Assembly: GCF_009910705.1 (NCBI RefSeq)
Contig: NZ_JAAAXJ010000001.1
Location: 62,001 to 126,000, forward strand
DNA length: 64,000 bases
From: Microvirga arsenatis
GTDB taxonomy: Bacteria; Pseudomonadota; Alphaproteobacteria; Rhizobiales; Beijerinckiaceae
Direction: 5' to 3'
This document shows, piece by piece, positions 43,791 through 45,244 of this stretch. How positions within the stretch are numbered: position 1 is the first letter of the stretch; each line of letters begins with the position of its first letter. A program made the translations under genes and the position numbers. The notes beneath the pieces are model-generated. The model did not search any database, was not told the DNA's origin, and saw only the letters and a list, made by a program, of their open reading frames with translations.

Positions 43791-43819
43791 TTGACGATCG
43801 CGCTTCGCACGCGTAGTTT
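43791..43819 (+). promoter_or_regulatory. Predicted promoter of tyrS leader transcript
   Basis: TTGACG (43791-43796), a 17-base spacer and TAGTTT (43814-43819) form a sigma70 promoter starting six bases after the purC stop. The expected start site falls at or next to the ATG at 43827, which would make the leader mRNA leaderless. Confidence 0.65.
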
Positions 43820-43826
43820 CTCGCCC

Positions 43827-43877
43827 ATGATCACCGGTCGCACCAGCTTCGTGAACTATTTTACGCCGTCCCCATAG
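43827..43877 (+). CDS. Putative 16-aa leader peptide (Phe/Tyr codons) upstream of tyrS
   Basis: ATG to TAG encodes [16 protein letters not shown]. Codons 8, 11 and 12 are Phe, Tyr (TAT) and Phe (TTT). The ATG lies seven bases after the -10 box, so translation would begin at the transcript's 5' end, as known for the leaderless trpL of Sinorhizobium. Overlapping RNA segments (see the next entries) fit transcription attenuation. A single Tyr codon is fewer than in classical leaders. Confidence 0.5.
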
Positions 43878-43932
43878 GGCGGCTCCGTTCGGTTGCGACC
43901 AGACGTGCGATGCCGCCGCTCCCGGCGGCATC
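43836..43932 (+). promoter_or_regulatory. Putative attenuator with alternative pairings
   Basis: Segment 1, GGTCGCA (43836-43842, inside the leader frame), can pair with TGCGACC (43894-43900). GGCGGC (43878-43883, just after the stop codon) can pair with GCCGCC (43912-43917). GATGCCGCC (43909-43917) can instead pair with GGCGGCATC (43924-43932). A ribosome stalled at the Tyr codon would cover segment 1 and favour the middle pairing. One that reaches the stop would cover the middle segment and favour the terminator. Confidence 0.5.
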
Positions 43933-43935
43933 TTC
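43909..43935 (+). terminator. Attenuator terminator hairpin before tyrS
   Basis: Nine perfect base pairs, GATGCCGCC/GGCGGCATC, with loop GCTCCC, followed only by TTCATAT, so the U tract is weak. It could alternatively serve only as the purC terminator. Confidence 0.5.
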
Positions 43936-43990
43936 ATATGGTGATCAGGTCTCCGGGCAGCGGCTCCCGCTAAAATCCCAGGAGACAGAC

Positions 43991-45244
43991 ATGAGCACAC
44001 CTCAATCCGAATTCCTGAAGACGCTCACGGAGCGCGGCTTCATCCACCAATGCACCGATCTGGCAGCGCTCGACGAGCGGCTCTCGGCCGGACCGGTCGC
44101 GGCCTATATCGGCTTCGACGCCACGGCCGACAGCCTTCATGTGGGCAGCCTCGTGCAGATCATGGCCCTGCGCTGGCTGCAGAAGTGCGGCCACAAGCCT
44201 GTGGTGCTCATCGGCGGCGGCACCTCGCAGATCGGCGATCCGAGCTTTCGCGATGCGAGCCGGCCGCTGCTTGAGGCTGAGCAGATCGCAAGGAATGCTG
44301 CGGGGCTGAAGCAGGTCTTCTCCCGCTACCTCGCCTTCGGCGACGGGCCGACCGATGCGGTGATGGTCGACAATGCGGACTGGCTCGACCCGCTGCGGTA
44401 CCTGCCTTTCCTCCGGGATTTCGGCACGCATTTCACCATCAACCGGATGCTCAGCTTCGACAGCGTGCGCCAGCGGCTCGAGCGGGAGCAGCCGCTGACC
44501 CTGCTCGAGTTCAACTACATGGTGCTGCAGGCCTTCGACTTCCTGGAGCTGTCGCGGCATCATGCCTGCGTGCTGCAGATGGGCGGGTCGGACCAGTGGG
44601 GCAATATCGTCAACGGCATCGAACTCGCCCGCCGCATCGACGGGCGACGGCTCTTCGGCCTGACGACGCCGCTCATCACCACCTCCGCCGGAGCCAAGAT
44701 GGGCAAGACGGCGGGCGGGGCCGTGTGGCTCAATGCCGAACGCCTGACCCCTTACGAGTTCTGGCAGTTCTGGCGCAACACAGAGGACGACGATGTCGCC
44801 CGCTTCCTGCGTCTCTTCACCGAATTGCCCCTGAACGAGGTGCAGCGGCTCGGGCAGCTGAAAGGAGCCGAGATCAACGAGGCGAAGCAGATCCTGGCTA
44901 CCGAGGCGACGCGGCTCGCCCATGGCGAGGAAGCCGCGCGAGAGGCTGCGGACACCGCACGCCGCGTCTTTGAGGAGGGCGAGAGCGCCTCAGGTCTGCC
45001 GACCGTCGAACTCCCGCGGGCCGAACTCGACGCAGGAGTCACCGTTGCGCAACTCCTGGTCCATGCGGGCCTCTCGACCTCGAGGAGCGACGCCCGGCGC
45101 CTGGTGCTCAACCAGGGCGCCAGGCTCAACGGAACCCTCGTGCAGGACGCGGATTTCCGCATTTCCGCAGAGGATCTCGCCGATGGAGCGTTGAAGCTCA
45201 CCGCCGGCAGAAAACGACACGTCCTGGTCCATGTGAGCGGCTGA
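43991..45244 (+). CDS. tyrS: Tyrosyl-tRNA synthetase
   Basis: The product has 417 residues; AGGAG precedes the ATG by seven bases. The class I HIGH-type motif is in [24 protein letters not shown] near residue 40. Tyrosine/adenylate pocket segments are [21 protein letters not shown] ([16 protein letters not shown]) and [30 protein letters not shown] and the KMSKS-type loop [15 protein letters not shown] follow. The C-terminus is an S4 RNA-binding domain ([31 protein letters not shown]). It charges tRNA-Tyr. Confidence 0.96.

Follow-up and report, generated by a model that had tools for sequence, protein, structure and literature searches.

A putative leaderless attenuator with tyrosine codons upstream of a second tyrosyl-tRNA synthetase gene in Microvirga and other Alphaproteobacteria

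In the 64-kb stretch of Microvirga arsenatis DNA analysed here (the window), the space between purC and a downstream tyrosyl-tRNA synthetase (TyrRS) gene holds a promoter, a short open reading frame and a succession of complementary segments. The initial annotation had listed the promoter, a 16-codon frame with Phe8, Tyr11 and Phe12, and the three pairings GGTCGCA:TGCGACC, GGCGGC:GCCGCC and GATGCCGCC:GGCGGCATC, all of which have the letters and positions it gave; it overlooked a hairpin around the leader stop codon (1:2, 43865-43871:43877-43883) and another over the Shine-Dalgarno sequence of the gene. It was also right that the gene encodes a TyrS, but this is the second TyrS of the genome and not the ordinary copy, and the gene is called tyrS2 below. 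The features, with + for the forward strand, are as follows.

43784: end of purC, 6 bases 5' of the -35 box
43791..43796, +: -35 box TTGACG, from the sequence; TTGAC identical in 30 Microvirga loci
between TTGACG and TAGTTT, +: promoter spacer of 17 nt, from the sequence
43814..43819, +: -10 box TAGTTT, seven bases 5' of the ATG at 43827
43826-43827, +: probable transcription start (+1), from the promoter-AUG spacing in the curated leaders
43827..43877, +: leader open reading frame, 16 codons plus TAG; frame kept in 31/31 distinct Microvirga leaders
43836..43842, +: P0 5' arm GGTCGCA, partner 43894-43900
43857..43862, +: putative regulatory codons Tyr11 TAT (43857-43859) and Phe12 TTT, from the Microvirga alignment and ribosome-position folding
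43865..43871, +: arm 1 of the 1:2 hairpin, GCCGTCC, mostly beneath a ribosome stalled at Tyr11
43875-43877, +: leader stop codon TAG, from the sequence
43877..43883, +: arm 2, GGGCGGC, partner of arm 1 or, as GGCGGC (43878-43883), of arm 3
43894..43900, +: P0 3' arm TGCGACC, partner 43836-43842
43909..43917, +: arm 3, GATGCCGCC, predicted antiterminator with arm 2 and terminator with arm 4
43924..43932, +: arm 4, GGCGGCATC, partner of arm 3 (43909-43917)
43933..43939, +: weak U tract TTCATAT, from the sequence
43949..43954, +: GTCTCC, inside GTCTCCGG, pairs with the tyrS Shine-Dalgarno strand
43981..43986, +: GGAGAC, Shine-Dalgarno strand of the second hairpin, partner 43949-43954
43991..45244, +: tyrS2, second tyrosyl-tRNA synthetase, 417 aa, TIGR00234 359.9 bits (cut-off 113.8)

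Residue 8 of the leader peptide is Phe, and GGCGGC (43878-43883) is complementary to GCCGCC (43912-43917), which gives the 2:3 pairing. Once the 1:2 hairpin around the stop codon is included, the arms follow the classical attenuator order (1:2, 2:3, 3:4). An outer stem, TGATCACC (43828-43835) with GGTGATCA (43940-43947), folds in the window and decays in distant Microvirga, and was therefore left out of the element. An Rfam scan of the whole window at gathering scores returned two tRNAs only, with neither a T-box nor any other RNA family. T-box RNAs read tRNA directly, without a leader peptide; a T-box riboswitch was considered as the identity of the tyrS2 leader and rejected, the window holding no Rfam T-box match.

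The ordinary TyrS of the window genome (G000:C5:18524-19777) is 57% identical to the tyrS2 product, tyrS2 being a second, distinct TyrRS gene beside it. Among 48 Microvirga genomes, a TyrS of the window type (73-100% identical) was found in 39, with the leader directly 5' of it in 39/39 and the end of the leader match 47-58 nt 5' of the TyrS homology, and an ordinary TyrS (56-60% identical to that of the window) in 47. The ordinary copy is intact in 37 of the 39 genomes with the window type and missing from the fragmented assembly G025 (92% complete). In G023 it lies in two adjacent pieces (G023:C7:1474-2859) beside an intact leader-bearing TyrS2, which may reflect either a fault in the assembly or the loss of the ordinary gene. 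The Tyr leader of Microvirga stands before tyrS2 (39 of the 48 genomes) or before a prephenate dehydrogenase gene (8: G036, G001, G017, G028, G030, G005, G823 and G813), with only G813 having it at both, and no leader match was found in G010 and G021. The prephenate dehydrogenase leaders, of the SYYPPSS-stop type and kin, are homologous to the tyrS2 leader, and the seven Microvirga with a leader only at that gene have one TyrS each.

A BLAST search with the region gave a match in 28 of 36 genomes of the genus, one each and always directly 5' of tyrS, and in 0 of 24 genomes from other families of the order. Because purC is near only 16 of 29 Microvirga loci (inside the fetched flank, window locus included) and missing from the other 13, the conserved block consists of promoter, leader and tyrS. 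The 31 distinct leaders have the consensus M-I-x-x-R-x-x-x-x-[NS]-Y-[FY]-x-x-S-x-stop, with a TPSP ending in 29. Conservation of the frame in relatives had been proposed as a check and was found, the frame with Tyr11 being kept in all 31; position 12 alternates between Phe and Tyr (Tyr in 8/31), and Phe8 is lost in two. The single Tyr codon, named at the outset as a weak point, is indeed single in 23 of these leaders, with YY in the other 8. Over 30 loci, pairwise identity is 99.7% from codon 13 to arm 2, 92% in the 3:4 hairpin and 100% in GTCTCCGG, compared with 41-42% in the promoter spacer and upstream of the promoter, and 55% at four-fold degenerate sites in the window-type tyrS. The constraint is so strong that the genus alone yields almost no compensatory change: two-sided change was seen in 1 of 35 consensus pairs. 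GGTCGCA:TGCGACC is poorly kept within Microvirga, where other rows read GGCCGCA, AGCCGCA, GATCGCA or AACCGCC.

Outside Microvirga, eight of 72 tyrS loci (among 80 loci fetched by protein homology) have the same layout and were first spotted via short frames holding Tyr codons. Six are Rhizobium-type loci (MTRVPTLSGLYYALLP-stop and kin), and the other two are from Azospirillum oryzae (MTDRIALTSPMYYLPLT-stop) and one further proteobacterium (MTNNYLILCSYYPRPT-stop); L046, one of the six, lies at a contig end and was excluded from the alignments, its leader start not being trusted. A CATAG-n-GCGGC motif and TCTCCGG near the gene, noticed afterwards, are common to the non-Microvirga leader loci apart from L071, with a variant of the former, and L063, with CTCCGG only; TCTCCGG also occurs ~245 nt upstream in two other tyrS loci. 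The exact pattern CATAGNGCGGC-N45-75-TCTCCGG was tried and discarded: it matched 15 of 385 genomes of the class (own included), the reversed control matched some too, and on visual inspection the remaining matches lacked the leader layout.

Three covariance models (R1, R2, R3) were built in succession. R1 matched 14 of 297 genomes of the order, 10 of the 14 matches being leaders by inspection, and R2 gave 20 matches in 18 of 385 genomes across the class, with 17 leaders by inspection, the window site and one other training site included. R3 gave 86 matches in 74 of 397 genomes of the order. At E <= 1e-4, 46 of 48 R3 matches (own included) precede tyrS (16), prephenate dehydrogenase (22; five were scanned and have Pfam PF02153) or a GNAT-type gene (8; assigned by weak tblastn hits, E down to 4e-4), and the other two, L223 and L226, have no assigned gene class; at E <= 1e-6 there are 40 matches, 9 of them training sites, and 31/31 others precede one of these three kinds of gene. 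Of the 38 weaker than E 1e-4, 22 were fetched and 16 left aside; the fetched set contained four leaders, before two trpS genes, one trpE and one DAHP synthase gene, the last two names coming from a reading of the protein sequence. The remaining 18, among them L245 in the window genome, were judged false or unassignable, as were the model matches L144-L147, L163, L164, L166, L168, L170, L223 and L226, and the weak partial matches L169 and L171, in the window genome, stand outside the leader counts. No R3 match fell below E 0.67 in 72 leaderless tyrS loci, of which 64 were fetched loci of non-Microvirga type and eight were ordinary copies of Microvirga.

The copy number of TyrS follows the position of the leader. 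All 16 other genomes with a leader-bearing tyrS have two TyrS, as do the Rhizobium-type, Azospirillum and further proteobacterium locus genomes (7/7 checked), and 19 of 20 genomes with a leader only at prephenate dehydrogenase or GNAT genes have one, the last having none at the threshold. In total, a further intact TyrS is present in 60 of 62 checked genomes with a leader-bearing tyrS, and two TyrS in 0 of 27 checked genomes with the leader only at prephenate dehydrogenase or GNAT genes. These counts indicate that, in the genomes checked, the attenuator accompanies either a gene of tyrosine biosynthesis or a TyrRS of the auxiliary lineage and is not associated with the ordinary TyrRS. A tree of 55 proteins, built without an outgroup, has a branch (98/92) between 23 leader-bearing TyrS and 16 ordinary copies, of which 13 come from genomes that have both kinds and 3 from Microvirga lacking the second. 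The 32 leaderless TyrS also group together, on one side of a branch with lower support (87/79).

The aromatic codons of the leaders match the genes that follow. The curated set comprised 74 leaders after removal of L205 and L227, whose start codons are uncertain, and of duplicates of the same site. Tyr is present in 52/52 leaders of tyrS and prephenate dehydrogenase and Trp in 0/52, Trp is present in 4/4 leaders of trpS and trpE, and both occur together in 13/13 GNAT leaders; the downstream gene is not encoded in R1-R3, which were trained on Tyr-rich leaders and therefore favour Tyr leaders. YY occurs in 22 of 24 prephenate dehydrogenase leaders, and the trpS leaders end in ..RNWWRSN-stop and ..ANLWWRST-stop, with MNMILTSIWWWRGAT-stop as the trpE leader (L246). 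In predicted translation the element thus has what characterizes an attenuator, a short leader frame with codons for the amino acid tied to the regulated gene. As for the promoter, TTGAC lies <=60 nt upstream in 60 of the 74 leaders (shuffled mean 2.9, maximum 8), 35-36 nt 5' of the AUG in 46 of these 60, and in 56 of the 74 the best -10 hexamer, sought between 9 and 18 nt before the AUG, starts 12-13 nt upstream of that codon. This spacing is that expected if +1 is the A of the AUG or its neighbour, and fits a leaderless transcript.

Folding, partner swapping and covariation were evaluated, like the Shine-Dalgarno helix below, on curated, non-random sets. The best fold of 43827-43990 has z = -5.8, with 0/200 shuffles as good, and the predicted energies of the 1:2 and 3:4 hairpins of the window are -11.7 and -20.1 kcal/mol. 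For 73 leaders, a ribosome was set on each codon in turn and the RNA 3' of it was folded with arm 4 absent. The terminator 5' arm pairs most with upstream RNA (0.70-0.71) when the last Tyr/Trp codon or its predecessor occupies the A site; this pairing drops to 0.25 with the ribosome five codons beyond the last such codon, and is intermediate (0.47-0.60) for stalls three or more codons before the aromatic codons. Between the last aromatic codon and the stop, arm-3 pairing differs by >0.2 in 67 of the 73, a stall at the cognate codon favouring 2:3 and a ribosome at the stop favouring 3:4; the window leader is among the 6 below 0.2, with a small contrast (0.71 at Tyr, 0.58 at the stop). Before arm 4, the window stretch downstream of the ribosome folds at -20.9 kcal/mol with the ribosome at Tyr11 and at -7.1 with it at the stop. 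With arm 4 present and the ribosome at Tyr11, equilibrium prefers 3:4 (-31.0 in the window), so antitermination would have to be kinetic, the antiterminator forming first.

Swapping of partners among 36 non-redundant leaders (of 57 having <=17 codons) gave a mean of 15.25 for P0 (first 12 nt against the RNA after arm 2) vs 11.75 with swapped partners (0/1000), the window P0 (12), whose arm lies beyond the first-12-nt test window, being no better than swapped partners; for the nearly invariant 1:2 hairpin, swapped partners were as good in 27/1000. Outside Microvirga, many leaders have a P0 stem that begins with the AUG. Alignment A6 holds 31 two-sided cells in 1:2 plus 3:4 vs 12.8 in shuffles (0/500 as high), 7 pairs with two-sided change vs 4.8 (reached by 47/500 shuffles) and 22 pair types vs 20.0 (reached by 77/500). 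By these comparisons the same architecture is built from different sequences in other families, and its pairs show compensatory change, so that the compensatory changes sought by the initial annotation do exist between genera and families and are nearly wanting within Microvirga.

Ribosome-mediated attenuation is textbook knowledge for Trp, His, Phe, Thr and the branched-chain amino acids. The tyrS2 element is probably (at roughly 80%) a leaderless ribosome-mediated transcription attenuator that senses tRNA-Tyr charging and controls an auxiliary TyrRS; the comparative evidence, the codon-gene match and the promoter spacing support the attenuation of tyrS that had been proposed from the window alone. 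The leader AUG would be the transcription start. With Tyr-tRNA scarce, the ribosome would wait at Tyr11 and cover most of arm 1, upon which 2:3 would form before arm 4 is made and the polymerase would continue into tyrS2. If Tyr-tRNA is ample, a ribosome at the stop codon would cover arm 2, leaving 3:4 to form and transcription to end. If no ribosome is loaded, P0 and the 1:2 hairpin would form, leaving 3:4, again with termination. P0 often includes the AUG, and we infer that it blocks the start once a first ribosome has passed, besides providing the terminated state without a ribosome. The start in vivo, translation, stalling, termination, tyrosine as the signal and a back-up purpose are likewise what we infer from the alignments and folds.

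The output of the same sensor could instead be mainly translational, the structures and the Shine-Dalgarno hairpin gating access of the ribosome to tyrS2 and not the polymerase. In its favour, GTCTCC (43949-43954) and GGAGAC (43981-43986) form a hairpin predicted at -19.7 kcal/mol that hides the tyrS Shine-Dalgarno sequence, and the helix score averages 17.1 over 31 non-redundant leaders (4 of the 31 Microvirga leaders kept, gene starts set by hand) vs 14.97 with swapped partners (0/1000) and 12.1 before 71 leaderless tyrS (P about 8e-10). U tracts are also weak, above all at prephenate dehydrogenase leaders, and the strong 3:4 stem of the window is followed by TTCATAT only; given this tract and the 4/23 prephenate dehydrogenase leaders with 6+ T, the output may not be intrinsic termination everywhere. 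The poor U tract had already been conceded in the initial annotation and is real in the window, but in 19 of 27 curated tyrS leaders T makes up at least 6 of the 12 nt that follow the stem, and a T-rich tract follows it in 13/13 GNAT leaders; at the U-tract position, 7 of 31 Microvirga leaders have the stem core followed by GTTTTCAT. Moreover, the Shine-Dalgarno helix is poor in L159, L161 and L162, and a chain switch, in which freed arm 4 would open the Shine-Dalgarno hairpin, was tried and rejected: predicted accessibility is the same (0.318 vs 0.315 in 28 leaders), so a link from the sensor to this hairpin was not found. A mainly translational output is on this evidence unlikely.

Two further explanations concern what is sensed. 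Nucleotide conservation goes beyond the needs of the peptide, which would suit autoregulation through TyrRS binding to the conserved RNA, the small frame being incidental, and E. coli ThrRS does bind the thrS leader. Such binding is very improbable here, however, as the same layout precedes prephenate dehydrogenase, trpS, trpE and the DAHP synthase gene with aromatic codons altered to fit each gene, the promoter-AUG distance is kept, and the stop codon is kept inside the 1:2 hairpin in most families. It is just as hard to credit that the sensor responds to Phe or to any aromatic amino acid in place of Tyr. Phe12 directly follows Tyr11 in the window, Phe8 is frequent and the GNAT leaders combine Trp, Tyr and Phe, but against this stand the invariance of Tyr11 in Microvirga, the exchange of Phe and Tyr at position 12, the two losses of Phe8 and the YY of the prephenate dehydrogenase leaders. 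Of the signals "Tyr (or Phe)" proposed initially, Tyr is therefore the likelier.

Returning to attenuation by tRNA-Tyr charging, the lack of tyrS2 in 9 of 48 Microvirga genomes fits dispensability, and by analogy with Bacillus subtilis TyrZ the spare TyrRS may serve when the ordinary one cannot keep tRNA-Tyr charged. More tentatively, and with somewhat less than even odds, TyrS2 and its leader may be a heritable emergency unit, an old second TyrRS lineage of Alphaproteobacteria that is on only when the ordinary TyrRS fails, whether through starvation, D-Tyr or a natural TyrRS inhibitor. Such a unit would have a double gate (Tyr-codon attenuation and the Shine-Dalgarno hairpin) and would be a single branch within a larger family of leaderless attenuators with aromatic codons, at tyrS2, prephenate dehydrogenase, trpS, trpE, DAHP synthase, GNAT and S4 genes.

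The nearest known system is Sinorhizobium meliloti trpL (rnTrpL/peTrpL), an example of leaderless ribosome-mediated attenuation (PMC7298713, PMC10117765). Both are alphaproteobacterial and share, as predicted for the tyrS2 leader, an RNA that starts at the AUG of a short leader frame, mutually exclusive antiterminator and terminator, and a ribosome stalling at cognate codons; unlike trpL, with Trp codons before trpE(G), the window has Tyr codons before a second tyrS, and its leader additionally has P0 and a hairpin that covers the Shine-Dalgarno sequence of the gene. The aminoacyl-tRNA synthetase genes described as attenuated by leader peptides are under the same kind of control with other amino acids and in other phyla or classes, and their description mentions neither second gene copies nor leaderless transcripts, the former a feature of tyrS2 and the latter predicted for it. 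Bacillus subtilis tyrZ also encodes a second TyrRS, auxiliary to the housekeeping one, under a T-box and a MarR regulator (PMC9437257), unlike the window, which has a leader-peptide layout and no Rfam T-box match. Term searches found tyrS and tyrosine nowhere in the main text of a survey of premature terminators (PMC2965389), and no mention of tyrS in papers on small reading frames of S. meliloti and Bradyrhizobium (PMC10117765, PMC5082802). A literature search, mostly of open-access papers, contained no Tyr attenuator among the matches listed. Enterococcus durans reportedly has a tyrosine-regulated tyrS-like gene (PMC3315439). The tyrS2 leader would represent classical attenuation that is leaderless, responds to an amino acid new to this mechanism, has two additional conserved stems and belongs to a second TyrRS gene. 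If true, this would be a tyrosine-specific RNA control in Alphaproteobacteria, where Firmicutes use T-boxes, would give a reason why some Alphaproteobacteria keep two TyrRS genes, and would predict the condition that induces the second TyrRS.

Some of the related leaders depart from the pattern. At prephenate dehydrogenase genes (L139, L140, L141, L143 and kin) the 3:4 hairpin is kept and the U tract almost absent (6+ T in 4/23), which hints at a different output. Similar leaders at L153, L157, L165 and L167 lie upstream of genes whose small products (87-92 aa, three measured) resemble, on reading of the sequence, the C-terminal S4 domain of TyrRS; of two scanned, one had a sub-threshold PF22421 match and the other no match. 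The tyrS leaders of family f213 (L142, L207, L210-L212, L214-L216, L218 and L225) run past the usual stop and end some codons later (YFYYVTSIPAAA-stop and kin), indicating that a stop in the hairpin loop is not strictly required. Leaders with Trp, Tyr and Phe together (..WYFTPLT-stop, ..SYFWLYL-stop) precede a small GNAT-type acetyltransferase gene, found in the class search (L149, L152, L154, L155, L158) and in the order search (L190, L192, L197, L198, L201, L203, L209, L217), and the DAHP synthase leader L229 (MITVATSYYWYF..) also holds all three aromatic amino acids.
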